The notes beneath the pieces were generated by a model. The model did no database searches, was not told the DNA's origin, and saw only the letters and a program-made list of their open reading frames with translations. DNA of 64,000 bases from Flavobacteriales bacterium (GTDB lineage Bacteria > Bacteroidota > Bacteroidia > Flavobacteriales > Flavobacteriaceae): assembly GCA_027061855.1 (NCBI GenBank), contig JAMOVT010000003.1, positions 1-64,000 on the forward strand, in the 5' to 3' direction. A program made the position numbers and the translations under genes. Numbering within the stretch: the stretch's first letter is position 1; each line of letters opens with the position of its first letter. Below are positions 8,034-27,485 of the stretch, one piece after another.

Positions 8034-8066
8034 GAAGAATTTTTGTATCTTCCAAAGGAAATTTTG

Positions 8067-11119: not shown

Positions 11120-11146
11120 TAATAGAAACAATAAAAAGTATCAGAT

Positions 11147-11620
11147 ATGAAAAAAGTAAACACCATCGGATTGGATCCGAAAGCCAGTAAAAAATTAGCC
11201 GTAAAATTAAATGATTTATTGGCCAATTATTCCGTATTTTATCAAAATGTACGGGGAATGCACTGGAATATCAAAGGAGATAAATTTTTTGAATTACATG
11301 TGAAGTTCGAAGAACTTTATGATGATTTGATTTTGAAAATAGACGAATTGGCAGAGCGTATTCTTACTCTGGGATTTTCACCGGAGCACCGTTATTCCGC
11401 TTATTTAAAAAAATCGGAGATTAAAGAATTGAAAGAGACCTGTAACGGAAAAAAGGATGTGGAAGAGATACTGAAATCATTGCAAATTATCATTGCCAAA
11501 CAAAGGGACATATTGGATTTGGCAGATGAAATAGGAGATGAAGGTACCAATGCTTTGATGAGTGACTATATCCGAGAACAAGAAAAATTGGCCTGGATGT
11601 ATCGTGCATTTTTAGGTTAA
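11147..11620 (+). CDS. dps: Dps-family DNA-binding ferritin-like protein
   Basis: Dps forms dodecamers that oxidise Fe2+ with H2O2, store iron and protect DNA. The 157-residue product has the inter-subunit ferroxidase pattern: His39 in GMHWNIKG, His51, Glu55 (Asp in E. coli), Asp66 and Glu70 in KIDELAERI, with E. coli spacing. The N-terminus has lysines (KKVNTIGLDPKASKKLAVK) that may contact DNA. It is a single-gene unit with its own promoter box and a bidirectional terminator. Confidence 0.95.
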   Translation: MKKVNTIGLDPKASKKLAVKLNDLLANYSVFYQNVRGMHWNIKGDKFFELHVKFEELYDDLILKIDELAERILTLGFSPEHRYSAYLKKSEIKELKETCNGKKDVEEILKSLQIIIAKQRDILDLADEIGDEGTNALMSDYIREQEKLAWMYRAFLG

Positions 11621-11640
11621 GTTTGGTTAATTTAGAACAA

Positions 11641-11670
11641 AAAAGCCCTGTTTTCAGGGCTTTTTTTATA
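11641..11670. terminator. bidirectional terminator between dps and the sphingolipid run
   Basis: AAAAGCCCTG-TTTT-CAGGGCTTTT is a perfect hairpin (11641-11664) with T tracts on both strands. It serves dps on the plus strand and the PAP2 gene, the last of the 16-gene minus-strand run, two bases away. Confidence 0.9.
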
Positions 11671-12595
11671 TGGAATGAGCAAAGGCTTGAATAAAGCGGT
11701 TGATTTTTTTGTTTTTATAGATGATTTTGTCAAACACTATTAAAACTACCACTGCAAGTAATATACCGGCCAATACATCGATTAAATAATGGTGGTTGGA
11801 ATAAACGGCTGCAAACCATATTCCAAGCATAAATATTGCGAAAATCGCAATGATACTTTTGGGCATTTTGGCTTTTATACTGTAATAGAATACGATTAAC
11901 GGATAGGTAGCGTGAAGGGAGGGCATAGCTGCCAATACATTGGCATTTTTATTATAAATATTTTTAAATAACGGATAATGAATCAATTGGTCAAAACGTT
12001 CCAATCCGGCTCTGCTTCCGGGGACTCCTATTTGTAAATCAAAACCATATTTGGAAATATACCAAGGAGGCGCAGCAGGATATAAATAGTAAATTATAAA
12101 CCCGATAATATTGACCAAAAGAAAAGCTAAAGCAAATTCCACAAATATTTTTTTATTTTTCAAAAAAAGATAGAAACCGAATCCTAGTGGAATAGGCATC
12201 CAATTGATGTAAAAAAAACCGGAAAGGAAATCTAGAATTTTGCGTGAGTGATGAGAAAAATATTCATTAGGGGTTAAAATCTTTCCCCCGTCGTTTATGC
12301 CGAAAAGATATTTTTCTATATCATAAGGTTCTTTAATGTGCGCCGTATTAACCGTATAATTAGGGACGGCACGCATGGCATCATAAAGTATCCAAAAAAT
12401 AATAAAAACAGAATAGGCAAGGGCAAAACGCCGTGTTTTGTCGGACAGATAAAATAAAATCCACCAAAGAACAACCAGAAAAATATGCTCTTTTCGTAAA
12501 TCTCCTATAGAAATATTAAATCCCAAATACAGCCCTGACAAAAGGATATTAATCAGTATATTTTTTTTGGTAAACCTCTTAAAATCATTCTCCAT
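11666..12595 (-). CDS. PAP2-superfamily membrane protein, Aur1-like; candidate inositol phosphorylceramide synthase
   Basis: The 309-residue protein has about six to eight membrane segments and the lipid-phosphatase-type active site: PSLHATYP (about residue 225) and SNHHYLIDVLAG (about residue 265). The long loop before the first motif (PPWYISKYG through VPGSRAGLERFDQLIHYPL) resembles Aur1/PAP2_3 proteins rather than plain phosphatases. Aur1-like enzymes move the inositol-phosphate head group from phosphatidylinositol to ceramide. Its place at the end of a run with serine palmitoyltransferase, inositol-phosphate synthase and a PI-type synthase supports this role; a Bacteroides homologue in a comparable inositol-lipid locus has been assigned it. 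A simple lipid phosphatase remains possible. Confidence 0.75.
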   Translation of the reverse strand: MENDFKRFTKKNILINILLSGLYLGFNISIGDLRKEHIFLVVLWWILFYLSDKTRRFALAYSVFIIFWILYDAMRAVPNYTVNTAHIKEPYDIEKYLFGINDGGKILTPNEYFSHHSRKILDFLSGFFYINWMPIPLGFGFYLFLKNKKIFVEFALAFLLVNIIGFIIYYLYPAAPPWYISKYGFDLQIGVPGSRAGLERFDQLIHYPLFKNIYNKNANVLAAMPSLHATYPLIVFYYSIKAKMPKSIIAIFAIFMLGIWFAAVYSNHHYLIDVLAGILLAVVVLIVFDKIIYKNKKINRFIQAFAHSI

Positions 12596-12606
12596 TTGTA
12601 TTGTTT

Positions 12607-13140
12607 TTATTTAATATCTTTAGGAAATACTTTTTGATATGCCTTTTTTCCCGTTGCAAGATCATAGCCGAAGAATTCTCCGTATTTCACTTTGGGAATC
12701 CAACCGGATTCATCTAAAGTAGCAAACATACGTTCGAGTTTAGCCGGTTTTCCGTCAATAATAGTAATTACTTCTGCTTGATAAGGGCCGGTTTGTTTTA
12801 ACCATAATTTCACTTTGCTACTTGCCGAAAGATATAAGCGGTAATCATAAGGACTCTTTTCTTCTTTTTTTGCTTTGATACCGTAAGCCATCCATCGTTC
12901 ATAGCTTCTCAAAGGCATTTTCTGCCCTTTTTCCGCAAAACGAATCCAATAGGCTTTTACGGGATTTTCTGTGTCCAATATACCGTTTTCATCAAAATTT
13001 GCATCATAAACAATAGTATTGGCATTATGTGTTCGTTGGATATAAAATAAAAGATGTTTGGTTTTTGGGGTTGGGTAATGGGCTTCTTGTGAAGAGAAAC
13101 TCATTAATAATATGGATATTAAACTAAGTACTGTTTTCAT
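12607..13140 (-). CDS. DUF4833 protein, exported, of the sphingolipid cluster
   Basis: The 177-residue product begins with a signal peptide (MKTVLSLISILLMSFSS). The mature part starts with PTPKTKHLLFYIQRTHNANT and VYDANF, then WIRFAEKG, which I recognise as DUF4833, and ends with a strand-rich segment. No catalytic motif is visible and no function is known to me. It lies 11 bases before the Aur1-like gene and directly after the SDR gene, so it belongs to the lipid operon and may handle or sense the product at the envelope. ATG 13140 is preferred; ATG 13146 two codons earlier is equally open, and a TTG at 13179 would overlap the upstream gene. Confidence 0.75.
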   Translation of the reverse strand: MKTVLSLISILLMSFSSQEAHYPTPKTKHLLFYIQRTHNANTIVYDANFDENGILDTENPVKAYWIRFAEKGQKMPLRSYERWMAYGIKAKKEEKSPYDYRLYLSASSKVKLWLKQTGPYQAEVITIIDGKPAKLERMFATLDESGWIPKVKYGEFFGYDLATGKKAYQKVFPKDIK

Positions 13141-13151
13141 GATCATTTCAA

Positions 13152-14147
13152 TTAAATAAGATTGTTTTCTTTGTACCAATTTAAAGTTTCTTCGATTCCT
13201 TCTTCCAGTGAATATTCCGGTGTAAAATTGAAATCATAAACCAAGCCGGAGCTGTCGCAGAGCCAATTTTGTTGAGAAATTTCTTTAAATTTTTCCGTAT
13301 TTAAAGTAGGGATTTTTCCAAAGAGTTTACAAGAAAGTTTTTCATTGAGCCAAGTGAGATATTTAACCATTTTTGCCGGAAAAACGAGTTGTACTGTTTT
13401 TGCATTGAGGGCTTTTTTAATCCGGTTGTTAAATTCTTCAGCAGTATAAGTATGTAAGTCGGAAGCAAAATAGGATTTATGAACCACTTCCGATTCCAAA
13501 GCATCCATTAACAAGCGACTGAGGTCTTTTACATAGATCAAAGATATGTATTGTTTTTTAGTGCCTATATAGGTTTCGAGTCCTTTCTTTATACTTTTAA
13601 ACATTATATAGAAATCTTGCTCACGCGGACCGTATACACCGGTTGGCCGAAAAATTAAATAAGGAAAATCTTTGATTGATTTTATATATTTTTCTGTTTT
13701 TAATTTACTTTCTCCATAAAGAGAAATCGGTTGCGGAGCATCGGTGTCTTTTACCGGTTTCAAACTTATTGGATCTCCGGGTCCATAGGCAGCCAAACTG
13801 CTTATCTGTATATATTTTTGAGGAATTTTTCCGGTTTCTCTAAGAGCTTCAATAAGATTTTTTGTATACTGATAATTTACCGTATCAAAAACTTCTTTTT
13901 TACAGGTCTTGGTCACTCCCGCATTATGTATGATATAATCAAAAGTTTCATTGGAATCAAAAAACTCTTTTAGTTTGTTTTTGTCGGATAAATCAGGGTG
14001 AACCAATTGGATTTTATCCAAGGGGAGATGAGAAAAATTGCTTGTTTTTCGTACGGAGGCAAATACTTTATAATTTCTGTTTAAGGCTTCTACTACTAAG
14101 TGGCTTCCAACAAACCCATTGGCTCCTGTGATCAATATCTTCTTCAT
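13152..14147 (-). CDS. extended SDR (NAD-dependent epimerase-like); candidate ceramide/3-ketosphinganine reductase
   Basis: The 331-residue protein has an extended short-chain dehydrogenase fold: GANGFVGSHL (residues 8-17) for the dinucleotide, HNAGVTKT (about 95), the Ser in QISSLAAYGPGD and the catalytic YxxxK as YGESKLK (about 149-155). A sugar-epimerase role is possible, but no other sugar genes are nearby. It sits one base after the GNAT gene and two genes after serine palmitoyltransferase. In Caulobacter an epimerase-like protein, CerR, performs the keto reduction in ceramide synthesis, and this is the most economical reading here. The C-terminal half is less conserved and presumably binds the lipid. 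Confidence 0.72.
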   Translation of the reverse strand: MKKILITGANGFVGSHLVVEALNRNYKVFASVRKTSNFSHLPLDKIQLVHPDLSDKNKLKEFFDSNETFDYIIHNAGVTKTCKKEVFDTVNYQYTKNLIEALRETGKIPQKYIQISSLAAYGPGDPISLKPVKDTDAPQPISLYGESKLKTEKYIKSIKDFPYLIFRPTGVYGPREQDFYIMFKSIKKGLETYIGTKKQYISLIYVKDLSRLLMDALESEVVHKSYFASDLHTYTAEEFNNRIKKALNAKTVQLVFPAKMVKYLTWLNEKLSCKLFGKIPTLNTEKFKEISQQNWLCDSSGLVYDFNFTPEYSLEEGIEETLNWYKENNLI

Positions 14148-14148
14148 T

Positions 14149-15282
14149 TTAAATATCTTCTTTGATATAAATTCTGCGTCTTAAATGTTGGCGGGTTTTA
14201 TAAGGATTAAACATTTGTAAGGAAGGTTTATTGTCTTCCAAAATATGACTGGTAATAGCTTTTTTTATACCCGCATTGATGCTGTTTTGGGTCATGCTTT
14301 CATAAAAAATAGCGGGAACTCCTTTTCCGTGGTATTCGGGTTTTACTGCATGAAGTAAAAGATCGAGAGTTTTTTCTGTTTTCATTGCCCATAAAATATA
14401 GATAAAACCAAAAGGAAATAATTTGCCTTTTGCCTTTATCAATGCATTGGTTAAGGAACGTGATGCCAATCCGAATCCTACCAACTGGTCATTTTCATCT
14501 ACTACAAGGTTGACGAATTTCGGATCAACCATTGAAAAATATTGTTCGGTATAATATTTAATTTGTTTTTCGGTAAAGGGAACGAAACCATATAAATCTT
14601 TATAGGATTCATTGATAAGAGCAAAAATCTGATCGGCATATTTCAATATATCCTTTGATTTTTTTGCATCGACTAATTTCAGGTTATATTTTTTTTGTAC
14701 CAATTTGGATATACGTGTAATTTTTTCGGGAACTTTATCATCCGGGATGGTTACTTCGAGCTGTACCCAATCGGTATCTTTTTTATATCCCAATTTTTCC
14801 ATATGTTCGGGATAATAAGGATAGTTATAAATCACTGCTTGGGTTCCGGGCTCCTCAAAACCTTCCACCAGCATTCCTTCAAGGTCAAAATCAGAAAATC
14901 CGAGTGGTCCGTGTACGGCATTCATTCCTTTTTCCTTGGCCCAATTTTCTACGGTTTCAATCAAAGCTTTTGATACTTCGGGATCATCGATAAAATCTAT
15001 CCAACCGAAACGCATATTTTTTTCGTTCCAGATTTCATTGGATTTATGATTGAGAATGGCGGCTATGCGCCCTACAACTTTTCCTTCTTTGTATGCCAGC
15101 CAATATTTGGCTTCACAAAATTCAAAAGCCGGATTCTTTTTGGGATCCAGGTGTGCTTTCTCAAAAGTATGTAATTGAGGGGCTCGATAGGGATTCCCTT
15201 TGTATAATTCATCGGGGAATTTTATAAATTTCTTTAAATCCGATTTTGTTGTTACTTCTTTGATTTGTACTGAATTTGCCAT
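14149..15282 (-). CDS. GNAT-superfamily acyltransferase; candidate bacterial ceramide synthase
   Basis: The 377-residue protein belongs to a family often mislabelled 'GTP cyclohydrolase'. It opens with KKFIKFPDELYKGNPYRAP, followed by WLAYKEGKVVGRIAAILN, which matches the central strands of a GNAT fold, then GPLGFSDFDLEGMLVEGF and a second, C-terminal GNAT-like half (about residues 200-377) with HAVKPEYHGKGVPAIFYE resembling the acyl-CoA pyrophosphate loop. Bacterial ceramide synthase (bCerS) of Caulobacter is a GNAT-type protein beside serine palmitoyltransferase. Lying 22 bases downstream of the SPT gene, this protein is the best candidate for N-acylation of the sphingoid base. The assignment is by family and context, not by specific residues. 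Confidence 0.7.
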   Translation of the reverse strand: MANSVQIKEVTTKSDLKKFIKFPDELYKGNPYRAPQLHTFEKAHLDPKKNPAFEFCEAKYWLAYKEGKVVGRIAAILNHKSNEIWNEKNMRFGWIDFIDDPEVSKALIETVENWAKEKGMNAVHGPLGFSDFDLEGMLVEGFEEPGTQAVIYNYPYYPEHMEKLGYKKDTDWVQLEVTIPDDKVPEKITRISKLVQKKYNLKLVDAKKSKDILKYADQIFALINESYKDLYGFVPFTEKQIKYYTEQYFSMVDPKFVNLVVDENDQLVGFGLASRSLTNALIKAKGKLFPFGFIYILWAMKTEKTLDLLLHAVKPEYHGKGVPAIFYESMTQNSINAGIKKAITSHILEDNKPSLQMFNPYKTRQHLRRRIYIKEDI

Positions 15283-15304: not shown

Positions 15305-16480
15305 CTATATCATTTTCCTTACTTCTACTAATGTATCCACTGCTTGATCAATTTGTTCTTTTGTATGGGTAGCCATCAATGAAAATCTCAATATTCCCTT
15401 GCCTTTTTCTACTGCCGGATGTACTACCGGATTTACATAAATTCCTTTTTCCAACAATATGGCGCCATATTTATAGGTACTGATATTATCTCCTACAAAT
15501 ATAGGAATAATAGGGGATTGTGTATGTCCGGTATCAAAGCCGTTTTCTTTTAATAATTTTAGCGCATAATCTGTGTTTTGATGGAGTCTTTCTATTCGTT
15601 CGGGCTCTCGTTGAATGATTTCCAATGCTTTGAGTACCGTTGCAGCTGAAGCCGGAGGAATCCCGGCACTGAATAAGAGTGAACGGGAGTTATGTTTGAT
15701 ATAATTAATCACTTCTTCGTCTCCGGCTATAAATCCACCGAGTGAAGCCAGTGATTTACTGAAAGTTCCCATAATCAGATCCGTTTTATCGGTAAGACCG
15801 AAATGAGAGGCCGTACCGGCTCCTTTTTCACCGATTACTCCCAATGCATGTGCATCATCCACCATAATGGAGGCTCCGTATTTTTCTGCCAACTCTACGA
15901 TTTTATCTAAATGGGCAATGTCTCCTTCCATACTAAAAATTCCGTCTGTTACAATTAGATTTGTTTGGTCGGGACCTATTCGCTGTAATATTTTTTCCAA
16001 TCCGGCCATATCATTATGCCTGTATTTCAATGTTTTGGCAAAAGCAAGGCGGGTTCCTTCTATAATGGAAGCATGATTTTTATCATCTATAATTATATAG
16101 TCGTTTCGTCCTACAATACTGGGGATTACTCCCATATTGACCTGGAAACCGGTACTGAAAACAGTAGCTGCCGGTTTTTTTACATAATCGGCCAAAGCTT
16201 TTTCCAATTTTTCATGGAGATCGAGATTGCCATTCATCAAACGGGAACCTGAGGCGCCTGTTCCGTAAAGATCAAGTGCTTCTTTTGCGGCTTGTACCAC
16301 TTCCGGATGCCGGGTAAGTCCCAAATAGCTATTTGATCCAAACATCAAAACTTTTTTTCCTTTATATAATACCTCAGTGTCTTGTCCTGATTCCAATGGA
16401 TGGTAAAAAGGATAGAAGCCCATTTTCATAGCCATTTGGGGTTCATTATAACTTGCGAATTTCTTTTGTAATCTTTTCAT
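15305..16480 (-). CDS. spt: serine palmitoyltransferase (alpha-oxoamine synthase)
   Basis: SPT condenses serine with an acyl-CoA or acyl-ACP to a 3-keto sphingoid base, the first step of sphingolipid synthesis, using PLP. The 391-residue product shows the fold type I features: FGSNSYLGLTRHPEV (47-61), GTGASGSRLMNGN (73-85), His136 in DDKNHASII stacking on PLP, Asp208 and His211 in MVDDAHALG, and the PLP lysine Lys242 in GTFSKSLASLGGF. Related enzymes (KBL, AONS) are alternatives, but the surrounding sphingolipid genes and overall sequence favour SPT. ATG 16480 is chosen; the upstream TTG at 16501 would overlap the preceding gene. Confidence 0.9.
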   Translation of the reverse strand: MKRLQKKFASYNEPQMAMKMGFYPFYHPLESGQDTEVLYKGKKVLMFGSNSYLGLTRHPEVVQAAKEALDLYGTGASGSRLMNGNLDLHEKLEKALADYVKKPAATVFSTGFQVNMGVIPSIVGRNDYIIIDDKNHASIIEGTRLAFAKTLKYRHNDMAGLEKILQRIGPDQTNLIVTDGIFSMEGDIAHLDKIVELAEKYGASIMVDDAHALGVIGEKGAGTASHFGLTDKTDLIMGTFSKSLASLGGFIAGDEEVINYIKHNSRSLLFSAGIPPASAATVLKALEIIQREPERIERLHQNTDYALKLLKENGFDTGHTQSPIIPIFVGDNISTYKYGAILLEKGIYVNPVVHPAVEKGKGILRFSLMATHTKEQIDQAVDTLVEVRKMI

Positions 16481-16490
16481 AATTTCACTA

Positions 16491-19022
16491 TTAAAAATCA
16501 AACTTAAATCTTGCTCTTATCCCGTACTCACTTACATTGGGTAAGTTCAGATAATTGATTCTTTTGATTAAATCTACTCTAAAAAATTTGAATATATTTT
16601 CAACTCCTATACTGGTTTCTATATAGGGTTCCTTGTCAAATGTATATGTATAACTTACACCGTTTATATCTTGAGGGAATTGCATTAATTCCGGATGAAT
16701 TTGCGGGTCGTTTTTTTCGGTCAAAGTTCCATAGATTGTTTTGACGGACGTGACCGCTCTCCATTTCAATTTTTTTATCAGTGGAATCCGGTTTAGCAAG
16801 AAACCGTAAAAATGATGTTCGGCAGATCCCGCCACATATTCATCACTTACAAATTCCATAAAATTCATAAGATTGTAGGAATATAATTGATAGGAGTAGG
16901 TTTGGTTGGCGCGAGGAATAAATAAATTGGTATAAGGGATGCCGCTTCCATATACTTTTCCGGCTTCCACATCAAAATTAGTAAAACCTACGGGCCCGAA
17001 ATAAAACCTTTTGAAAAAGTTGAATTTTAGTTTCGAATATTCATAATCAGAGCCCAAAAAGCCTTTTACGGATTGCAGATAGGTTAACTGAAAAATGGGA
17101 TATTTATTAATAATCGGAACCGTATAATCCATTCCTTCATAGTATTTTTCATTGGGAGCAAATCGCAAAGTAGTAATGATCTGTGAAGAGGTAATATCCG
17201 GTTTGATATAATCTGTAAAATCAAATTGCCAATTTCCGCCGGGAGACTGTTTTAAATATTTTAAGGCTATATCGGTTGAAAAACCACTTCCCCAATCTTT
17301 TTTATGGTTGATTTTAAACATATCATAATAAAGAATTTTATCTGCTACGCCACGTTTGAAAGAAAGTAAAAAATTATCCTCATTGATGAATTGCATTTCC
17401 ATTCCGGGAAAATTGGTTTCTCTTTGATACATAATACCCAGGTAATGTTTTGGGAATTTTCTCAAAGATCTGTGATTCAGTGAAAAATTGGCTTTGATGG
17501 AATATTTAAACTGTTTGTCTTTGTTTGCATAGACAAAATATCCTTCCAAGCGTCTTGTTTTACTAAGTTTTTCACTGGTTTTTCCTCCGAAACGCAATCG
17601 GAAACCTTCGATATCATTAAAACTGTAAAAGGAATTTATAGGACCGACATCCACTTTATTAAAATTCCAATAACCGACTGTGAGAAGCATAATGGTATTG
17701 ATGGTTCTTTTAAAAGCGGGAATGGTTTTAATGGTATCGACCATCTTATAAATATTCTCTTCTTCTTTGGTCAAAGGATCCAAACGTTGTTTTTGCCAAA
17801 AAGTTTCGTCTTTGTCCATGGCATCTACTAACTCCTCTTGTTTCTCAATTCCGTCAAATATTTTGTCATCAATAGGTTGATTTAATTTAAAATTGCTGTA
17901 AGTGACTTTCTTCTTTCCAAAAAAACCTGTCTTCCGTTTCAAAAAACTGAAATCAACAAAAATTTCATCATGAGTTTTCATCCATATTTTATTATCGATG
18001 AATTTGAATTCCTGAATCACCTGGAGATCATTCACAAAATTGAGATTGATATCTTTGGTAACATTCATGATTACTTTTGTTACGGCATATCGCTCATCGT
18101 TTGTGATATATAAATTTCCTTTGAAAGCGAAGTCCTGTTTATTCCGTGGTCTGAATGCCAATTGAATACAATTTTGTCCGTTTACATCGAGGGTGTCAAT
18201 GATATGGAATTTATATACCATCGGAGCAATTTTTGAGATAGGACTGACAAATTGATTGGTCATTAACATCACGGTACCGTCATAAATATCAATATCGCTA
18301 TAAATATAATCTGTCAAAACACCCACCCCTTGATCATTGATATAGTCATGAAAACCGGTGAGCTTACGAGCTTTTATTATTTCTTTTTGATCTTTGGGAT
18401 TTTTTCTAAAATATTCCGTAGAAAGTGTTTCTTCCAAAAATACAGGCAAAAAAGGCTTGCCGTTTACCTTTGATGTATCAACATATTTGAATAGAATTTG
18501 AAGTTTTTTAAATATTTTTTTCTTTTTAAAATCTTCGGTAATATTACTGATGTCAAATTCCACTTTTTTATGCTTGTCATATTGGTAATAATCCAAAGCT
18601 TCTTTTCTGTTTAAATTTTTGTTTTTTAATACTTTTTTGATCAACTCTACTGCGGGATTGTTTTTATTTCTATATCTCACCTTTGTTTTAATTACCACTT
18701 CATCCAATCTTTGAGCATCCGGTTCAAGATAAAAATCCACTCGTTGTGAAGTACCTGTCTTAATATTTTTTATTTGGTTTTTGTAGCCTACATAACTGAC
18801 ACCTATTTTATTGGAAGCCCATTGTGAATCCAATTTATATTCACCGTTAAAATCGGTAGTGGTTCCAATATTTTTGCCTACAAAATAGACAGTTACAAAA
18901 GGCAGAGGCTCCTTTGTTTGTGCATCTTTGATGACGCCGTAAACTTTTGTTACCTCCTGACTTAATACATCAAAATAGGAAAGAGATAATAAAATTAATA
19001 TGATAATTTTATATTTGCTCAT
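16491..19022 (-). CDS. outer-membrane protein with CarboxypepD_reg-like plug and DUF5686 barrel
   Basis: The 843-residue protein has a signal peptide (about 1-21), then a carboxypeptidase-regulatory-like domain (about 25-110: KVYGVIKDAQTKEPLPFVTV, then GTTTDFNGEYKL) and a long DUF5686 region. Its second half is rich in alternating aromatic strands, and it ends in a terminal phenylalanine (RARFKFDF), as outer-membrane beta barrels do. It looks like a TonB-independent relative of SusC-type proteins; no TonB box is evident. It overlaps the GtrA gene by 14 bases and precedes serine palmitoyltransferase by 10, so it is embedded in the sphingolipid operon. A role in moving or anchoring lipid at the outer membrane is inference. 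Confidence 0.82.
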   Translation of the reverse strand: MSKYKIIILILLSLSYFDVLSQEVTKVYGVIKDAQTKEPLPFVTVYFVGKNIGTTTDFNGEYKLDSQWASNKIGVSYVGYKNQIKNIKTGTSQRVDFYLEPDAQRLDEVVIKTKVRYRNKNNPAVELIKKVLKNKNLNRKEALDYYQYDKHKKVEFDISNITEDFKKKKIFKKLQILFKYVDTSKVNGKPFLPVFLEETLSTEYFRKNPKDQKEIIKARKLTGFHDYINDQGVGVLTDYIYSDIDIYDGTVMLMTNQFVSPISKIAPMVYKFHIIDTLDVNGQNCIQLAFRPRNKQDFAFKGNLYITNDERYAVTKVIMNVTKDINLNFVNDLQVIQEFKFIDNKIWMKTHDEIFVDFSFLKRKTGFFGKKKVTYSNFKLNQPIDDKIFDGIEKQEELVDAMDKDETFWQKQRLDPLTKEEENIYKMVDTIKTIPAFKRTINTIMLLTVGYWNFNKVDVGPINSFYSFNDIEGFRLRFGGKTSEKLSKTRRLEGYFVYANKDKQFKYSIKANFSLNHRSLRKFPKHYLGIMYQRETNFPGMEMQFINEDNFLLSFKRGVADKILYYDMFKINHKKDWGSGFSTDIALKYLKQSPGGNWQFDFTDYIKPDITSSQIITTLRFAPNEKYYEGMDYTVPIINKYPIFQLTYLQSVKGFLGSDYEYSKLKFNFFKRFYFGPVGFTNFDVEAGKVYGSGIPYTNLFIPRANQTYSYQLYSYNLMNFMEFVSDEYVAGSAEHHFYGFLLNRIPLIKKLKWRAVTSVKTIYGTLTEKNDPQIHPELMQFPQDINGVSYTYTFDKEPYIETSIGVENIFKFFRVDLIKRINYLNLPNVSEYGIRARFKFDF

Positions 19023-19392
19023 TACTGAAAATAAAATATTTATTCATTAAAAAATTAAACCCGATGCCAACTATTGCAGAGGTGATAATCTTACCCGCTA
19101 TGGGACTTGTTTTAAGGTATTCTACTAAGATATATATACCTATGGTATTCAAAATAATGCTTCCTATCCATACCATAAAATATTTAAAACTTTGTTTTTT
19201 AATAGAGCCGTTTTTGGCTTTAAAAACCCAATTTCTATTCAAAATGAAAGCTGTTATACCACCTGACACTGCACCTATTATTGTGGCAGCAATATACCAT
19301 ATGCCCAATCCTTTTGATAACAATACAAAAACCGAAAAATCAACCAAAGTAGCTAAAAGAGAAACAAAATTATATTTAAAAAATGCTATCAA
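19009..19392 (-). CDS. GtrA-family small membrane protein
   Basis: The 127-residue protein has four membrane helices and the GtrA pattern: FFKYNFVSLLATLVDFSVF at the start, GAVSGGITAFILNRNWVF in the middle and GFNFLMNKYFIF near the end. GtrA proteins are thought to flip polyprenyl-linked sugars across the inner membrane or to support such transfer. Here it lies between the PgpA-like phosphatase and the DUF5686 gene in the inositol-lipid part of the run, which suggests handling of an inositol lipid or intermediate. This is inference. The end overlaps the start of the DUF5686 gene by 14 bases. Confidence 0.85.
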   Translation of the reverse strand: MIAFFKYNFVSLLATLVDFSVFVLLSKGLGIWYIAATIIGAVSGGITAFILNRNWVFKAKNGSIKKQSFKYFMVWIGSIILNTIGIYILVEYLKTSPIAGKIITSAIVGIGFNFLMNKYFIFSNEQI

Positions 19393-19404: not shown

Positions 19405-19875
19405 TTATAATAATTTAATAATGATTTGCATTACAATTAATGCGTAAATTCCAGCTAAAATATCATCCCACATCACTCCCCAATCGGTATGTTTCTCATC
19501 TATTTTTTTTATGCCGAAAGGTTTTGCAATGTCAAAAACCCTGAAAACTGCAAAAGCCAATAAATAGTAATAGAAATTTAAGGGGAGGAATAGAAGGCTT
19601 ATCCATACCCCCACCACTTCGTCTATGACAATTTTATTATCGTCATGTGGCCAAATTTCATGTACTTTTTTAATTGCTTTTACTCCAATCAAAGTAATAA
19701 GAACAATAGCAAGCAAGTCTAAAAACAGAATTATACCTGAGGAAAAATCAAACAAAGTCAATAATTTGTTTAGGAAAAACATTATTAACATCCCTAATAA
19801 AGCCCCGGCTGTTCCGGGAGCTTTCGGAAAATATCCCATTCCCAGACTTGTTGCTATTGCTATATATTTTTTCAC
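19405..19875 (-). CDS. PgpA-family phosphatase; candidate phosphatidylinositol-phosphate phosphatase
   Basis: The 156-residue protein has the PgpA signatures: GMGYFPKAPGTAGALLG near the N-terminus, DEVVGVWISLLFLP in the middle (metal-binding Asp-Glu) and DWGVMWDDILAGIYA toward the end, with about four membrane segments. PgpA normally dephosphorylates phosphatidylglycerophosphate. Placed between inositol-phosphate synthase and GtrA, and without an inositol monophosphatase gene nearby, it more likely converts phosphatidylinositol phosphate to phosphatidylinositol, as assigned to a PgpA-like protein in the Bacteroides inositol-lipid locus. It starts nine bases after the MIPS stop. Confidence 0.82.
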   Translation of the reverse strand: MKKYIAIATSLGMGYFPKAPGTAGALLGMLIMFFLNKLLTLFDFSSGIILFLDLLAIVLITLIGVKAIKKVHEIWPHDDNKIVIDEVVGVWISLLFLPLNFYYYLLAFAVFRVFDIAKPFGIKKIDEKHTDWGVMWDDILAGIYALIVMQIIIKLL

Positions 19876-19884
19876 TTCTTCAAT

Positions 19885-21204
19885 TTAGTCTTCTTCATAA
19901 TAATCTAACCCCAAGTAGTTGATCAAATCTTCGCCCATCATATGACGCAACGTATTTTCCAATTTGATTTTTTGTTGGAAAATATCATGAATAGGAGTTA
20001 ATCCCGGTTTGGTTTGAGGAGATTTATAGTAGAATGATAACCATTCCTGAATACCTTTCATACCGGCACGTTGAGCCAAGTCCATAAATAAAGCCAAATC
20101 CAATACCACAGGAGCAGCAAGTATAGAATCTTTACACAAGAAATTTACTTTGATTTGCATTTTATAGCCTAACCAGCCGAATATGTCGATATTGTCCCAA
20201 CTTTCTTTATCATCCCCACGAGGAGGATAATAATTGATCCTTACTTTATGGTACATATCACCATATAACTCCGGATATTCTTCGGGTTCCAATACACTGT
20301 CCAGTACGCTTAATTTTGAAACTTCTTTGGTTTTAAAAGAATCGGGGTTATCCAAAACATATCCGTCTCTGTTTCCAAGAATATTGGTAGAGAACCAACC
20401 TTCAATACCTAGCAATCTCGTTTTAAAGCCGGGACCTAAAATGGTTTTCATCAAAGTTTGCCCTGTTTTAAAATCTTTTCCGGAGATAGCTACTCCTTCT
20501 TTTTTTGCCAATTCGACCAATGCAGGGATATCAACCGTTAAATTGGGAGCGCCGTTTCCAAAAGGAACACCGCTTTTAATGGCTGCATAAGCATAAATCA
20601 TACTAGGTGCAATAGCCGGATGATTTTCTTCCAAAGCTTTTTCAAATTTGTCAATACTTAAATGTACTTCATCCAACTCGGTATAAACTTCGGTAGAAGC
20701 ACACCAAATCATAACCGCTCTGTCGAGATCATTTTCTTTTTTAAAATTCTCGATATCTTTCATCAAGGCTTTGGCCTCATCCATTTTTGTTTTTTCTTTT
20801 TTTACGTTTTCTCCGTTGATATTTTTTACAAAATCGGGGTTGAAAACCGCTTTCATGGGCTTGATTGCAGAAAGTTCCTCTTTCATTTCGTTTAATAACC
20901 GGTCATCCAGCACTTTTGCTTTCATGGCCGCTTCGTATACATTATCCGTATAAATGTCCCAACCACCGAATACTATATTTTCCAGCGGAGCCAGAGGAAC
21001 AAAATCCTTTATGTCTACATTTCTATTTTCCGTTCTTTTTCCCAGACGGATTTTTCCCATTTGCGTATAAGAACCGATGGGTTTTCCCAAACCTTTATTT
21101 GCAGCTATTACTCCTGCCATAAAAGTAGTGGAAACAGCCCCCATACCGGGAGTTAAAATACCAAGTTTACCGTCTGCTTTTTTGATGTTTTCTTTTGTTT
21201 TCAT
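19885..21204 (-). CDS. myo-inositol-1-phosphate synthase
   Basis: The enzyme isomerises glucose 6-phosphate to inositol 1-phosphate with NAD+. The 439-residue product carries the NAD-binding motif LTPGMGAVSTTFMAGVIA (about 17-34), VFGGWDIYTDNVYEAA, CASTEVY, FGNGAPNLTVDIPALVELA and the active-site region ISGKDFKTGQT, then GWLGYKMQIKVNFLCKDSILAAPV near the C-terminus. I start at ATG 21204; a TTG at 21225 is in frame but less likely. It lies 30 bases after the CDP-alcohol phosphatidyltransferase gene, its probable user. Inositol synthesis is uncommon in bacteria outside Actinobacteria and some Bacteroidota, so this gene anchors the cluster reading. Confidence 0.93.
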   Translation of the reverse strand: MKTKENIKKADGKLGILTPGMGAVSTTFMAGVIAANKGLGKPIGSYTQMGKIRLGKRTENRNVDIKDFVPLAPLENIVFGGWDIYTDNVYEAAMKAKVLDDRLLNEMKEELSAIKPMKAVFNPDFVKNINGENVKKEKTKMDEAKALMKDIENFKKENDLDRAVMIWCASTEVYTELDEVHLSIDKFEKALEENHPAIAPSMIYAYAAIKSGVPFGNGAPNLTVDIPALVELAKKEGVAISGKDFKTGQTLMKTILGPGFKTRLLGIEGWFSTNILGNRDGYVLDNPDSFKTKEVSKLSVLDSVLEPEEYPELYGDMYHKVRINYYPPRGDDKESWDNIDIFGWLGYKMQIKVNFLCKDSILAAPVVLDLALFMDLAQRAGMKGIQEWLSFYYKSPQTKPGLTPIHDIFQQKIKLENTLRHMMGEDLINYLGLDYYEED

Positions 21205-21234
21205 TTTGATATGTTTTTGAAACAATTTATTGAG

Positions 21235-21921
21235 TTAATTAGTCATTATTTTTTTGCAATATTTAATTCTTTGATATGCTGTATAATTGGTCAAAACAGC
21301 CAATATAAATAAGGGTATGGTAAAGACCGAAATATTTTCAAATAAAGGAAAATTCCCCACTTGATATTTAAAATCTCCGGCAATGGAATAAACCACTCCA
21401 TATAAAATAGCCGAGATCCCGATTAATAAAATTCGTTCCGGTCTTTGCATCATTCCTACTTTGCATTCATATCCCAGTCCTTCGGCTCTTGCTCTGGCAT
21501 AGCTTACCATTATAGATCCGATCATGGCTATAAATGCAAAAATTCCACTGAGAAAATAATCAAAAGAAACCAAATAATAGGCGATTCCGAAAAACATAAT
21601 CATTTCACTGTAACGATCAATGATAGAATCGAAAAACGCTCCGAATGTACTCATTTGTCCTGTTTTGCGTGCCAGTTGTCCGTCAAGCATATCAAATACT
21701 CCGGCCAGCAGTAAAACTATGCCAAACAGAGTAATATATCTAGGATCATTTCTTTCTCCTTTTTCGGCTCCATAAATCAAAATTGCCGTAGATAAAATGG
21801 TAATCATAAACCCGATAAGGGTTATTTTGTTAGGGGTAAGTCCTGTTTTAATCAGCAAATTCAAGACAGGGTCGAGCAGACCATAGGCTTTCTTTTTGAT
21901 ATTTTCCCATTTATTATTCAT
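21235..21921 (-). CDS. CDP-alcohol phosphatidyltransferase; candidate phosphatidylinositol-phosphate synthase
   Basis: The 228-residue membrane enzyme has the complete CDP-alcohol signature: Asp77-x2-Asp80-Gly-x2-Ala-Arg-x8-Gly94-x3-Asp98-x3-Asp102 (DMLDGQLARKTGQ, then GAFFDSIIDR). Such enzymes couple CDP-diacylglycerol to an alcohol. The neighbouring inositol-1-phosphate synthase points to inositol phosphate as the acceptor, giving phosphatidylinositol phosphate. A separate phosphatidylserine synthase exists at 48298, so this one is not needed for PS. Its ATG overlaps the stop of the RND pump gene by one base (TAATG), tying the lipid genes to the efflux operon. Confidence 0.87.
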   Translation of the reverse strand: MNNKWENIKKKAYGLLDPVLNLLIKTGLTPNKITLIGFMITILSTAILIYGAEKGERNDPRYITLFGIVLLLAGVFDMLDGQLARKTGQMSTFGAFFDSIIDRYSEMIMFFGIAYYLVSFDYFLSGIFAFIAMIGSIMVSYARARAEGLGYECKVGMMQRPERILLIGISAILYGVVYSIAGDFKYQVGNFPLFENISVFTIPLFILAVLTNYTAYQRIKYCKKIMTN

Positions 21922-24900
21922 TATATTTTTTTTAATATTTTACTTTTAGAAAAAATTCTTTGGAATTTTGCTTTTGCTTGATCTACCAATTCATAAGCTA
22001 CCGGAACCAAATAGACTGTAATTAAGAAAGACGAGGTTAATCCACCGATGATTACCCATGCCAATCCGTTTTTCCATTCACTGGCAGATCCTTTTGCCAA
22101 AGCAATAGGCAACATTCCGATAGCCATGGCTATGGTGGTCATCATAATGGCTCTCATTCGAGTCTTTCCGGCTTTAATCAAAGCTTCTTTGGTTGAAAGT
22201 CCTTCTTTTTTATAATGGTTGGCAAAATCTACAATCAGGATGGAGTTTTTGGTTACCAATCCCATAAGCATAATCAACCCCAACAAAGTAAATACACTTA
22301 GATTGCTCATTGACAGGTTCAAGGCGAGTAAAGCACCTATAATTGCACCCGGAATTGCCAATAGGGTGACCAAAGGATAAATGAAATCATCATAAAGAGC
22401 TACTAACAAGAGATAGATGAGAAGCAGTGAAATGATAAGTACCTTTCCCAGAGCTGAGAAACTGTCCTTTTGTTTTGCGACATCCGATCCCCAACGCATC
22501 TCCACTCCTTCGGGTAAAGGATGTTTGGCCAGATATTCTTCTACTTTTGCAGCGAGGGTACCCGAAGGAATTCCTAATGCTTCGGAAGTTAAAGTAACTG
22601 CCGGTTGACGGTTTAGTCGTTCAAGCATAGAAGGTGTTTTGTCCCGAATGATGTCGGCAATTTGCGATAATTGAATAGGGGCACCTTTTTGGTTTACCAC
22701 ATTGAGTTGGCTCAAACTTGAATAATCTCTTCTGTCAATATCATCATACCAAATTCTAACGGGATATTCCACCCCTTTTTGTGTGATACTGGCGTCATCA
22801 TTTCCTGTGAGTGCCGTACGTATAGCCATTCCCATATAAGCTGTATTTAAGCCCAATTTTTGCATTTTGTCTGCATCGGGAATAATACGGTATTCAGGAC
22901 TTCCTTCTTTAACGGATAATTGTACATTATCAGCACCCGGAATCTGTTTAATGGCTTCTTGCAATTTTTGTGCTTCCTTCATTACTTGCTCCAAGTCACT
23001 TCCGCTTAAAGTAATTTCAATGGGAGCGGAACGAGCCACCAGGCCGATTTCGGCAATCGAATATTTAGCCAATGGATATTTGTCTTGCAAGACTTTTCTC
23101 AATTGAATCATATAAGTCTGGGTAGGCTGCCCGTTTCTTTCTTCAATAGGTTTTAATTGTATGGTTAATTCACTTTCATTTGGCATTCCCACTCCCAAAC
23201 TACCAATTCCGGAGCTAGGACCTCCAATATTGGAAAAAACACTTTCTACATCGGGTTGTTGTTGAATGAAACTTTCTATTTTATGGGTATAAATATTGTT
23301 TTGTTTTACGGAAAATGATTTGTCATATTCCAGGTTGATACGGAATTTTCCTTGGTCGCCCGTTGCAATCAATTCTTGTCCGATAATCTGTTGTTTCATT
23401 AACACTCCCGTTAGGACAATTAATAATAATATAAACCCTCCAAAAATCAATTTATGATCCAAAACCCATTCCAATTGACGTCCGTACCAATCGATAAATT
23501 GATCTAATTTTTTCTCAAACCAAATTAAGAATTTATTGAAGAAGTTTGTAGGACGGATGTCTTCTTTTTTTCCAATTCGTGAAGCCAGCCATGGAGTAAG
23601 GGTGAAACCTACCAATAAACTGGTTAGAGTAGAGGTAATTACCACTACCGAGAATTCTTTTAGCATGTCGGCTACAAAAATTTGCAAGAATAAGATAGGA
23701 AGGAATACAATTACGTCTACCAAGGTAATGGAAATAGCCGAATAACCGATTTCCATCCGTCCTTCATAGGCAGCTGTCCGGCGGTCTTTTCCGCTGTCAA
23801 GGTGACGCTGGATATTTTCTAAAACCACCGTTGCATCATCTACCAGAATCCCAATGATTAAGGACATGGCCAAAAGGGTCATTAAGTTTAATGTGTAACC
23901 CAATAGCCACATGACGGCAAAAGCCGTTACCAATGAGGTGGGAATTGCAACCAATACAATGAGAGCATTACGAAAACTTCTCAAAAACAACAACATAATT
24001 ATCGAAACCAATATAACGGCGATAATTAAATCGTGTATTACAGAATCAACCGCTGCTATTGTATTATCAGTAGTATCATCGGCAATGATAAATTTAACTT
24101 TATATTTTTTATTTTTTTCTTCGATTTTTTTAATTTGTTCCCGTACCCGTTTAGATACATCTACGGCATTGGCATCTCCTTGTTTTTTTATTAAAAGTCC
24201 TATTCCTTCTTCTCCGTTATACCGGCTAACATCGGTAATTTCTTGTATGCCGTCTTTTACTACTGCCAAGTTTTTTACATAAATAGGTACACCTGAGGGC
24301 TTCATTCCGACTTGGACATTTTTTATATCTTCAAGCGTTTGGAATTTCCCGAGAATACGCACCAAATTTCTTTCGGAGTCGGTCTTCACTTCTCCTGCCG
24401 GAATATCTTTTCCCGACATAATAATGGCTTGTGTCACTCTTTCAAGAGGAATTTGATAGAGTTTTAATTTATCCGGGTCGATTTTTACTTGAATTTCTCT
24501 TTGTTGTTTCCCTAAGACAGTGATCTCCGCCACCCCTTTCAATTGTTTGATTTGAGGTAGGTAATCATCTTTCATTTTTTGATAAAATTCGGTCCCGGGC
24601 ATTTCGGCAGTAGCACTGATTGACATAATAGGCAAATCAGCCGGAGATACTTTACTGAATTCCGGACTTAATGCTTCTTTGGGTAATTCGTTTTTAATAT
24701 TATCTATATAACGGGTAGCGTCCTGGATGGTTTTATCTACATCAACACCAGCATTTAAATTCACAATGACAATGGATGCATTGGGTAAGGATTTAGTGAC
24801 CAAATAGTCCAAGCCTTCCAAATTGGATAAAGCATCTTCAATTTTTTTGGATACCGAATTTTCCACTTCTTCGGGAGTGGCTCCCGGGTAAAGTGTTTTT

Positions 24901-25040
24901 ACGGTCATTACAGGCTGGTCGAAATCGGGCATGAGTTCATAACTCAAGTTTTTATAGCCCACATATCCAAACAGAATAAGGACACTAAACAATACGATGA
25001 TAAGTGAAGGTCTGTTTATTGCGGTTTTTGTTAAATTCAT
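21921..25040 (-). CDS. RND-family efflux pump, inner-membrane subunit (AcrB-like)
   Basis: The 1039-residue protein is a full-length HAE/RND transporter that drives export by proton flux through the MFP and TolC partners. It starts with the N-terminal membrane helix (NRPSLIIVLFSVLILFGYVGY) and has two large periplasmic loops and a second helix bundle after residue 530. The proton-relay aspartates are Asp401-Asp402 in IIGILVDDATVVLENI. The C-terminal bundle carries LLGLIMLMGLVTKNSILIVDF. Family members export drugs, metabolites, or in some branches lipids; the substrate cannot be read from sequence. The 47-base gap to the MFP gene is the largest in the 16-gene run. Confidence 0.95.
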   Translation of the reverse strand: MNLTKTAINRPSLIIVLFSVLILFGYVGYKNLSYELMPDFDQPVMTVKTLYPGATPEEVENSVSKKIEDALSNLEGLDYLVTKSLPNASIVIVNLNAGVDVDKTIQDATRYIDNIKNELPKEALSPEFSKVSPADLPIMSISATAEMPGTEFYQKMKDDYLPQIKQLKGVAEITVLGKQQREIQVKIDPDKLKLYQIPLERVTQAIIMSGKDIPAGEVKTDSERNLVRILGKFQTLEDIKNVQVGMKPSGVPIYVKNLAVVKDGIQEITDVSRYNGEEGIGLLIKKQGDANAVDVSKRVREQIKKIEEKNKKYKVKFIIADDTTDNTIAAVDSVIHDLIIAVILVSIIMLLFLRSFRNALIVLVAIPTSLVTAFAVMWLLGYTLNLMTLLAMSLIIGILVDDATVVLENIQRHLDSGKDRRTAAYEGRMEIGYSAISITLVDVIVFLPILFLQIFVADMLKEFSVVVITSTLTSLLVGFTLTPWLASRIGKKEDIRPTNFFNKFLIWFEKKLDQFIDWYGRQLEWVLDHKLIFGGFILLLIVLTGVLMKQQIIGQELIATGDQGKFRINLEYDKSFSVKQNNIYTHKIESFIQQQPDVESVFSNIGGPSSGIGSLGVGMPNESELTIQLKPIEERNGQPTQTYMIQLRKVLQDKYPLAKYSIAEIGLVARSAPIEITLSGSDLEQVMKEAQKLQEAIKQIPGADNVQLSVKEGSPEYRIIPDADKMQKLGLNTAYMGMAIRTALTGNDDASITQKGVEYPVRIWYDDIDRRDYSSLSQLNVVNQKGAPIQLSQIADIIRDKTPSMLERLNRQPAVTLTSEALGIPSGTLAAKVEEYLAKHPLPEGVEMRWGSDVAKQKDSFSALGKVLIISLLLIYLLLVALYDDFIYPLVTLLAIPGAIIGALLALNLSMSNLSVFTLLGLIMLMGLVTKNSILIVDFANHYKKEGLSTKEALIKAGKTRMRAIMMTTIAMAIGMLPIALAKGSASEWKNGLAWVIIGGLTSSFLITVYLVPVAYELVDQAKAKFQRIFSKSKILKKI

Positions 25041-25087
25041 AATCTTACATTTTTTTAGGATCTTTCTTAGATCGATTCACTTATTTA

Positions 25088-26146
25088 TTAGTTATTCTTT
25101 ATCAACGGAATGACATTGGCTCCGTCAAATAAATTAATAAAACCTGCTGTGACAATGGTATCTCCGGGTTTCAATCCTTTTTTAACCACCAAAATATTAT
25201 TGAAGCGTTGACCGGTTACAATGGGAGTCAAATGCGCTTTGTTATTTTTTATCAAATATACTTTTGGATCCAAATCAGAACCGGCAATGGCTTTTTCGGG
25301 GATAGCCAATACTTTTTTCTCTTTTAACTCCACTTTAATTTTACCGAACATATTGGCTTTTATTTTTTGGTCTTTGGTATTTTTTACTTGAAATTCTACC
25401 GGAAATTTATTACTCATATTTCCTTTTTCTCCGATACTTACCACTTTCCCCATTAATTTTAACCCGGGATAAGCATCTACGATTATCGGATAAGTTTTGC
25501 CAATTTGAAAGTAATCCAGCTCTCCGGAAGGCACATTAATGGTAAATTTAAGTTTATTTGTATCGGTCAAGGCTACGATAGGCACACCCGGAGCTGCAAA
25601 AGCCCCTGCTTCTACAAATTTTTTGGTAATATAGCCTTCGAAAGGAGCTTTGATTAAAGTATTGTTGATTTTTATCAAAATACTCTTTTTTTGTGCCTGG
25701 GCAGTTTTCAAGCCTTCTTGTATTTTTTCAAATTTTACTCCGGGAACCGCATCATTCTCGACCAATATTTTGTAACGTTTGTAATCCTTTTCGAGATTGG
25801 CTATTTTAATATTAATTTGGGATAACTGTGTTTTTAACTCCCTGTCATCCAATTTTGCCAAGGCTTGTCCTTTCTTTACTTTTTGTCCTTCATTCACATA
25901 TACTTTCAATACTTTTCCGGGGACTTCGCTATTTACACGTACTTCTTTTTCCGGAAAGAATTTCCCGCTAAGCACTTGGTTATAATTCAATGTTTTTTCT
26001 TTTACAATTTCTGCAAAAACTTTGATAGGAGCTTCTTTGTCATAAACATAGATTCTGTTTTTTGTAATTTCTTTATTGACTCTGAGTTTCAATACAATAA
26101 TAACAATCAATCCGATGATAATAACTAAACTTATTATTTTTTTCAT
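25088..26146 (-). CDS. RND efflux membrane-fusion protein (AcrA/MexA-like)
   Basis: The 352-residue periplasmic adaptor has one N-terminal membrane anchor (ISLVIIIGLIVIIVLKL) rather than a lipobox. It then has a biotinyl-lipoyl half-motif (SEVPGKVLKVYVNEGQKVKKGQALAKLDD, about 78-106), a short coiled-coil hairpin, the second half-motif (APFEGYITKKFVEAGAFAAPG) and beta-barrel and membrane-proximal domains. The short hairpin is typical of RND-type adaptors. It lies between TolC and the pump in the transcription order and should link them. Confidence 0.92.
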   Translation of the reverse strand: MKKIISLVIIIGLIVIIVLKLRVNKEITKNRIYVYDKEAPIKVFAEIVKEKTLNYNQVLSGKFFPEKEVRVNSEVPGKVLKVYVNEGQKVKKGQALAKLDDRELKTQLSQINIKIANLEKDYKRYKILVENDAVPGVKFEKIQEGLKTAQAQKKSILIKINNTLIKAPFEGYITKKFVEAGAFAAPGVPIVALTDTNKLKFTINVPSGELDYFQIGKTYPIIVDAYPGLKLMGKVVSIGEKGNMSNKFPVEFQVKNTKDQKIKANMFGKIKVELKEKKVLAIPEKAIAGSDLDPKVYLIKNNKAHLTPIVTGQRFNNILVVKKGLKPGDTIVTAGFINLFDGANVIPLIKNN

Positions 26147-26168
26147 TTTTTTCGATTTTTAAGATTAT

Positions 26169-27485
26169 TTAATTTTCCGGAATAAGATTCCCTGTTAATT
26201 TTTTTAATTCGAGTTCTGTTTTAAGATATTCTATTACACTGGACAAATAGTCTTGCTGTGCTTTTATTACTTCATTTTCGGCAGTAATCACATCATTGAG
26301 TGAAGCCACTTCTTGTTTATATTGCAAGAGGGTTTTTTCATAGACAGATTGTGCCAATTTCAATTGTTCCTTCTGATTTTCAGCTACTTTCAAATTCAAT
26401 TTAAGCCTTTCTTCGGCATTTTTGATATCCGTAGTATTTTTATCTACTACCAATTCCAATTGTAGCTTAGCATTTTCGGCATCCAATTTTTTTTGTTTGA
26501 TTTTTTTACTTCTACTAAAATCAAAAAGAGGGATTTCTATTTTTAATCCTACCAAAGATACGTCATAGAAATCAAGAAAATCGTGAGGTTTTTCATCATA
26601 ACCATACCCGATTGTTCCGTAACTTCCAAATAAGGATAAGGATGGCAAACGACCTTTTTTTAGTTTCTTCACTTCGGTGTTGGCCAACTCGTATTTTTTG
26701 GTCAAAAGAAGTTCTTCCGTGGAAGGTAACAAATTATATTTTTTTAATTGCGGTGTGATAATATCTGGAGAAACGTCAAAATCTTTATTGGTTCCCATAT
26801 TCAGTTTTAGCGCATTTATTATTTCATTGTATTTATTTTGTAATAATTTCAAATTTATATCCAACTTATTTACTTGTAAACGCACCTTATCCACATCATT
26901 TTTTGTGGCCAGTTTTTGTTGATAAAAAAGCTCTAAATCCTTAAGAACTTTTTGTAAATTTTCTTTGTTTTTAGAAGTAAAAACCATTTGGTTTTTGATC
27001 AGTTGTGCATTATAATACAAATTGGATATTAATACATATGTATCTTCTTTGCTTTTTTTGTAATTGAGTTTCTGCATTTCTTCAGCGATTTTGCTTATTT
27101 TCAATCCGCTGAATAATTCTGCATTATACAAAGGCATTCCCACTTGTACATTGGCATTGATATTATGTGGAACGCCAAATTGCGCCGGTTTAAATTCCCA
27201 GTCGGGAGCCATGGGATTGAAGGCTTTGGCCGGCATTAATTGAGTGGGTAAATCAAAATAGTATTTGTAATCAAAATTCCCATTAATTTTAGGCCAGAAA
27301 TTGGCTGCTATTTCTTTTCTTTTGTATTCGCTTTTCAATACTTCATTTTCGGCGATTTTGATTTGTCTGCTGTTATGGATAGCTTGATTCACACATTCGT
27401 CCAAACTCAGTATTTGCTGAGAAAAAACGGGTGTAATCCATATTGAGAGTAGTAACAAAAGGCTTGTTGTATATAACTTTTTCAT
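26169..27485 (-). CDS. TolC-family outer-membrane efflux protein
   Basis: The 438-residue protein has a signal peptide ending near SFSQ-type cleavage (TPVFSQ, about residue 23) and two OEP repeats built of long amphipathic helices: LSLDECVNQAIHNSRQIKIAENE opens the first. Coiled-coil-forming stretches dominate about residues 130-220 and 330-430, with beta strands between. It provides the exit duct for the pump encoded downstream. It begins five bases after the preceding small membrane-protein gene. Confidence 0.92.
   Translation of the reverse strand: MKKLYTTSLLLLLSIWITPVFSQQILSLDECVNQAIHNSRQIKIAENEVLKSEYKRKEIAANFWPKINGNFDYKYYFDLPTQLMPAKAFNPMAPDWEFKPAQFGVPHNINANVQVGMPLYNAELFSGLKISKIAEEMQKLNYKKSKEDTYVLISNLYYNAQLIKNQMVFTSKNKENLQKVLKDLELFYQQKLATKNDVDKVRLQVNKLDINLKLLQNKYNEIINALKLNMGTNKDFDVSPDIITPQLKKYNLLPSTEELLLTKKYELANTEVKKLKKGRLPSLSLFGSYGTIGYGYDEKPHDFLDFYDVSLVGLKIEIPLFDFSRSKKIKQKKLDAENAKLQLELVVDKNTTDIKNAEERLKLNLKVAENQKEQLKLAQSVYEKTLLQYKQEVASLNDVITAENEVIKAQQDYLSSVIEYLKTELELKKLTGNLIPEN

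Follow-up and report, generated by a model that had tools for sequence, protein, structure and literature searches.

Gene content of the operon

The window analysed here is a stretch of 64,000 nucleotides from a Flavobacteriales bacterium, on whose minus strand genes run without a break from ~28281 to 11666. Read 5' to 3', they encode TolC, AcrA and AcrB, a CDP-alcohol transferase, a myo-inositol-phosphate synthase (MIPS), a PgpA-like protein and a GtrA protein, followed by a DUF5686 protein, serine palmitoyltransferase (SPT), a GNAT-fold protein, an epimerase-type protein, a DUF4833 protein and a PAP2 protein. From the CDP-alcohol transferase through PAP2, intergenic gaps do not exceed ~23 bases. 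All coordinates of this run refer to the minus strand.

The inositol genes begin with a Pfam-supported CDP-alcohol phosphatidyltransferase of the PIP synthase type (21235..21921; counterpart BT_1523), whose best NCBIfam model is PIPSynBT1523 (294 bits, below the cut-off of 350). MIPS follows (19885..21225; Pfam; counterpart of BT_1526), with 563 bits to the solved inositol-3-phosphate synthase 7nwr, and then the PgpA-like protein (19405..19875), matched by Pfam and the literature to the PIP phosphatase BT_1525. At the other end of the operon, the PAP2_3 protein (11666..12595; Pfam; counterpart of BT_1522) is assigned as the inositol-phosphoceramide (IPC; phosphoinositol dihydroceramide) synthase, its sole NCBIfam match being PhinosDhcerSyn (336 bits, below the cut-off of 480). 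The ceramide genes comprise SPT (15305..16501, with a likely ATG start near 16480), which scores 485 bits to the solved Sphingobacterium-type SPT 3a2b and best matches NCBIfam SerpalmtaseCFB (619 bits, below the cut-off of 640); its fixed partner, a GNAT-fold protein (14149..15282; Pfam Acetyltransf_1) that is likely the bacterial ceramide synthase; and a fixed partner of both, an NAD-dependent epimerase-type protein (13152..14147; Pfam) that is likely the ceramide reductase. MIPS, PIP synthase, PIP phosphatase and IPC synthase all lie within this one operon, the gene content of the B. thetaiotaomicron-type inositol lipid cluster. Judged by its genes, the operon is predicted to encode the whole inositol-phosphoceramide pathway and to support production of both PI and IPC.

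Between the two sets lie the genes for a predicted four-helix inner-membrane protein of the GtrA family (19009..19392, 127 aa), the positional counterpart of BT_1524 (PMC8791184, PMC9246714), and a predicted outer-membrane protein of the DUF5686 family (16491..19022, 843 aa), assigned by Pfam, AlphaFold2, Foldseek and conservation. An earlier note on this DNA had described a 14-base overlap between the two and a position between the inositol genes and SPT. The overlap is exact (junction ...AGTAATGAGCAAATATAA..., ATG...TAA), and the placement holds, with MIPS, the PgpA-like gene and the CDP-alcohol transferase upstream and SPT onward downstream. The family names also stand, both Pfam matches being above cut-off: GtrA_DPMS_TM (PF04138) with 80 bits (cut-off 26.1) over the whole model, and DUF5686 (PF18939) with 198 bits (cut-off 39.2) over profile positions 2-655 of 669.

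The RND tripartite pump (TolC, AcrA, AcrB; 21921..27485) occupies the 5' end of the same run, and its membership in the lipid system is uncertain; it may be a further export component. The pump also occurs in the lipid operon of the congener G001 (L033), downstream there, adjoins the lipid operon in Arcicella (L086) and is divergent from SPT at several Mucilaginibacter loci. Downstream of the lipid operon is a convergent pair (8043-10992), named from sequence alone as an aldehyde dehydrogenase-like gene (+) and a GMC-type oxidoreductase-like gene (-).

Linkage of DUF5686 to lipid genes

Gene neighborhoods of 10 kb were compared around three anchors: SPT, DUF5686 and MIPS. A search of 395 genomes from the class detected SPT in 40, and at 12 of these 40 loci DUF5686 lies within 10 kb. 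In this set, each SPT locus that adjoins MIPS also carries DUF5686, and most have GtrA in between. Where inositol genes are missing from an SPT locus, DUF5686 is missing too, save at L055 and, with a divergent copy in a further genome, at L034. When the DUF5686 alignment alone served as query and the best 80 loci were taken, 64 had genes for inositol lipid, ceramide or both inside the 10-kb neighborhood (59 with two or more inositol genes, 5 more with ceramide genes), and GtrA was directly upstream of DUF5686 in 45 of the 80. The 16 with neither comprise two short contigs on which DUF4833/PAP2 (L088) or a CDP-alcohol gene (L147) is visible, eight loci whose genomes have SPT elsewhere, one with an inositol operon elsewhere (L111) and five that are unexplained. 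Around MIPS, DUF5686 lies within 10 kb at 18 of 32 loci, against a chance expectation of ~1-2%, a rough estimate from copy number and genome size.

The association persists through rearrangement. PgpA-GtrA-DUF5686 remains collinear while the CDP-alcohol and SPT blocks switch sides, the SPT block doing so even between the window and its congener G001. Minimal operons of Saprospiraceae (L098, L101) consist of SPT, GNAT, epimerase, DUF5686 and DUF4833, and DUF5686 is also found in the alternative inositol cluster (L055, L183, L185); no DUF5686 was seen near the BT-like clusters L180 and L181, the latter having none adjoining MIPS, nor near the L167 cluster. Loci from Spirosoma, Arcicella, Flectobacillus and Hymenobacter (L086, L092, L097, L107, L132, L144) carry DUF5686 and an IPC-synthase-like PAP2 gene alongside the inositol half, and no SPT was found in these genomes; the cargo of DUF5686 therefore cannot be defined as sphingolipid alone. 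DUF5686 thus accompanies ceramide genes, inositol genes, or both, so that the shared factor would be an envelope lipid of the phospho-headgroup or ceramide kind, not inositol alone. GtrA and DUF5686 do not form one unit.

Two loci carry other headgroup genes. At L055 (181-10606), ceramide genes and DUF5686 stand with an alternative headgroup set (NTP transferase, a 293-aa protein without assignment, CDP-alcohol transferase, LPG_synthase_TM and HAD), in which LPG_synthase_TM may stand in for GtrA. At L034 (7323-14944), a divergent DUF5686 gene precedes one for a 605-aa sulfatase-fold protein, after which come SPT, GNAT and epimerase genes; the sulfatase-fold protein is possibly a phosphoethanolamine transferase, and the locus perhaps an ethanolamine-headgroup version.

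The DUF5686 family is large, and its near-universal paralogues include some that lie next to tsf/pyrH/frr. We defined the close subtype as copies scoring at least 1000 bits on profile A2, where scores show a gap between 1024 and 912 bits. It is present in 26 of the 51 SPT- or MIPS-positive genomes and in none of the 19 negatives (Fisher p 4e-5), a value that is optimistic because kinship is uncorrected and negatives are few, and that is favored by a profile built mostly from sequences of lipid operons. MIPS is found in 21 of the 26 genomes and SPT only in the other 5; in five f48-family genomes the close subtype is unlinked from MIPS. SPT or MIPS lies beside 17 of 34 close copies versus 5 of 71 other copies (p 1e-6, likewise optimistic because kinship is ignored). 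G148 has no DUF5686 at E 1e-60.

GtrA and DUF5686 are both common families and might sit in the operon by chance or as hitch-hikers with no functional tie. The repetition of the linkage after rearrangement, together with co-occurrence where the genes are unlinked, argues against this, and co-occurrence in other families makes it very improbable.

Several candidate links were discarded. DUF5686 genes beside Kbl-type SPT homologues (L153, L155) had been considered as sphingolipid links; the neighbors at L153 are tsf and frr, marking a housekeeping paralogue, and there (9460-14163) the distant DUF5686 gene lies beside tsf and directly after frr, both ribosomal housekeeping genes. Unlinked DUF5686 copies were considered as neighbors of other lipid genes, and no lipid theme was evident around 14 such loci. 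In the small genome G031, which yielded no close SPT homologue, an in-frame TAG breaks a DUF5686 gene that scores fairly close (L156, 6477-9062; 910 bits) and is possibly a decaying copy.

Predicted fold of the DUF5686 protein

The DUF5686 protein has a signal peptide (1-22), a CarboxypepD_reg-like domain (~25-99; CarbopepD_reg_2 PF13715, 71 bits), a mixed periplasmic domain (~120-440) and a barrel (~450-843) ending in ...KFDF, as is typical of an outer-membrane beta-signal. Modeled with AlphaFold2 from 56 sequences (mean pLDDT 81.5, pTM 0.72), the protein has ~16 barrel strands, and its middle domain is mixed helix-strand with long antiparallel strands. The earlier note had pictured a plug-plus-barrel protein. 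Its barrel is borne out by the model, with ~16 strands and not the 22 of a TonB-dependent receptor; its plug is not, there being no match to Plug (PF07715), and what had been taken for one is the CarboxypepD_reg-like domain. That domain is all that the protein shares with TonB-dependent receptors, whose Plug and 22-stranded barrel are missing here. A LolA-like middle domain, suggested by secondary structure, was rejected, as hhalign probabilities for LolA (0.6%) and DUF4292 (0.2%) are at the level of reversed controls.

In a Foldseek search of the PDB, the top 50 matches to the model are all Omp85-type, the best being TamA 8us4 (E 6e-9, TM by target 0.66), BamA and Sam50. With moderate confidence, the modeled barrel has the 16-stranded Omp85 fold. 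Comparison of DUF5686 with an Omp85 profile gave an hhalign probability of 3.5% over 56 columns (reversed control 0.2%). No Pfam match to POTRA domains, whose count varies among members of the Omp85 superfamily, was obtained in the protein, where other domains precede the barrel; nor is there an RGF/RGY motif in loop L6, which reads ...RANQTYSYQLYSYNLMNFMEFVSD. With neither POTRA, RGF/RGY nor a clear profile match, DUF5686 is therefore best called an Omp85 look-alike and at most a putative member. The likeness appears to be one of fold only, sequence homology being unsupported.

Conservation peaks in loops L1, L3 and L6, which face outward on the assumption that both barrel ends are periplasmic, and the most conserved stretch is in L6, which joins strands 11 and 12 at the position that the functional loop takes in Omp85 proteins. 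The Omp85-like barrel would suit an outer-membrane assembly or stability factor of the TamA or BamA kind, specialized for membranes rich in anionic sphingolipid and hence co-expressed with the lipid genes; the near-universal paralogues, and unlinked close copies without lipid genes alongside, also favor such a role. We judge it unlikely, given a protein with neither POTRA domains nor RGF/RGY in L6 and a close subtype that follows the presence of SPT or MIPS. The conserved outward loops also carry invariant polar residues (N706, Q707, E723, D727), unusual for ordinary porin loops, which could point to a PagP- or PagL-like enzyme of the outer membrane, acting through polar residues of L3 and L6 to remodel the sphingolipid or PI once it has arrived. 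We hold this to be slightly less probable still, as no catalytic motif was recognized in DUF5686, the closest folds are Omp85 barrels rather than outer-membrane enzymes, and the gene goes with several different headgroup pathways.

GtrA and the inositol branch

GtrA shows four hydrophobic segments by hydropathy; its exact start is unsure because the open reading frame begins at TTG. GtrA tracks the inositol genes. It is absent from the Saprospiraceae ceramide-DUF5686 operons (L098, L101) and from L055, and several Mucilaginibacter operons have kept the IPC synthase and DUF5686 and lost GtrA, which is therefore helpful and not essential for IPC.

The active sites of PAP2-type enzymes face the periplasm in known bacterial phosphatases; for an IPC synthase so oriented, PI must therefore cross the inner membrane. 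In B. thetaiotaomicron, PI is made via MIPS, PIP synthase and PIP phosphatase, and IPC via the PAP2 enzyme (PMC9246714). In one study, deleting BT1524 lowered IPC and raised PI in total membranes, with no such shift in vesicles (PMC8791184), the outcome to be expected were GtrA to present PI to the IPC synthase; Heaver et al. detected no lipid change by TLC when BT_1524 was deleted (PMC9246714). The published data are compatible with a role for GtrA between PI and IPC.

The missing TLC phenotype, and the presence of inositol in the B. thetaiotaomicron capsule (Heaver et al., PMC9246714), would also agree with a GtrA that serves glycan transport, for instance by flipping a polyprenyl- or PI-linked precursor for an inositol-bearing capsule and affecting IPC only indirectly, and GtrA relatives do act in lipid-linked glycan modification (PMC7389260). 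Such a role has a low probability in our estimation: Pfam places no glycosyltransferase among the window's operon genes, the position beside the PIP phosphatase gene is conserved, and the BT1524 mutant has lower IPC and higher PI (PMC8791184).

A proposed export route

The DUF4833 protein (12607..13146; Pfam) has a signal peptide and a confident, beta-rich AlphaFold2 model (pLDDT 91), and is probably soluble and periplasmic. It recurs as a neighbor in lipid operons, belongs to the minimal Saprospiraceae operon, and is a possible periplasmic partner of DUF5686. A known lipid-carrier fold was considered for it and dropped, as its model has no significant PDB match.

That transport is encoded together with synthesis, as the earlier note suggested, is partly supported. 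It is the best-supported reading because both genes stay with lipid genes through rearrangement over many families, and the BT_1524 data agree with it; the transport itself is inferred, and the two genes proved separable. The account we prefer, held at a little under even confidence, is that the inositol-phosphoceramide operon carries its own envelope-handling proteins, GtrA for PI and DUF5686 for the finished lipid at the outer membrane. Ceramide would be made by SPT, the GNAT protein and the epimerase-type reductase, while MIPS, PIP synthase and the PgpA-like phosphatase would make PI at the cytoplasmic face. GtrA would help PI reach the periplasmic leaflet, where the PAP2-type IPC synthase may join phosphoinositol to ceramide. 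The periplasmic part of DUF5686 would then receive the finished lipid, perhaps from DUF4833, and its Omp85-like barrel, with the unusually conserved outward loops L1, L3 and L6, may help the lipid insert or move to the outer leaflet.

A broader proposal, which we regard as doubtful, places the lipid-linked DUF5686 branch at the outer-membrane end of a dedicated route exporting bacterial sphingolipids and inositol lipids. In it, an Omp85-like barrel with a periplasmic receiving domain of its own would be fed by DUF4833 as soluble periplasmic partner and, on the inositol branch, by GtrA as flippase, and the near-universal paralogues would act likewise on other lipids of the Bacteroidota outer membrane.

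Bacterial sphingolipids have to pass the inner membrane, periplasm and outer membrane. Caulobacter has its SPT and ceramide synthase in the cytoplasm and its reductase in the periplasm, and the authors of that work state that they have identified neither a flippase nor a transporter for sphingolipids (PMC11087976). More than half of B. thetaiotaomicron vesicle lipid is sphingolipid (PMC8791184), and because these lipids act on the host, their export route matters for microbiota-host signaling. DUF5686 is a concrete, testable candidate for machinery that carries them to the cell surface: its link to lipid genes offers a single deletable gene in genera with cultured strains (Pedobacter, Mucilaginibacter, Spirosoma), and that of DUF4833 a soluble partner for testing.

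Comparison with known systems

The inositol cluster with GtrA is already known, and the DUF5686 branch with lipid linkage appears new. In the literature searched, we found no paper naming DUF5686, and no report of the fused operon, the lipid-linked DUF5686 branch, the minimal ceramide-DUF5686-DUF4833 operon or the Omp85-like fold. Heaver et al. mention in passing a carboxypeptidase-regulatory-like neighbor, the BT_1527 homologue (PMC9246714). A DUF5686 identity for BT_1527 was considered and set aside; at the BT-like locus L181, DUF5686 does not adjoin MIPS.

With the Omp85 superfamily (TamA, BamA, Sam50), DUF5686 has in common a predicted 16-stranded barrel in which the loop joining strands 11 and 12 is strongly conserved, but has CarboxypepD_reg-like and mixed periplasmic domains in place of POTRA. 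TamL of the Bacteroidota TamL/TamB pair is likewise an outer-membrane barrel considered for lipid transport; it is a lipoprotein partner of TamB and a different protein from DUF5686, and in F. johnsoniae the main outer-membrane lipids were judged not to be its cargo (PMC12045153). GtcA and the GtrA-family putative flippases are, like the GtrA described here, small four-helix PF04138 membrane proteins, but GtcA-type glycan systems have a glycosyltransferase partner (PMC7389260) and none is seen in the present operon.

In the alternative inositol cluster, of the B. vulgatus/Prevotella-like kind (PMC9246714), DUF5686 is also found beside MIPS, HAD, NTP-transferase or CDP-alcohol genes (L183, L185, L055), whereas its headgroup chemistry differs and GtrA is missing, L055 having an LPG_synthase_TM gene. 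The closest parallel is BT_1522-BT_1526 of B. thetaiotaomicron (PMC9246714, PMC8791184), with its MIPS, PgpA-like PIP phosphatase, GtrA, PIP synthase and PAP2 IPC synthase. The order MIPS-PgpA-GtrA is common to both, and the present single operon adds SPT, ceramide synthase, reductase, DUF4833 and DUF5686.
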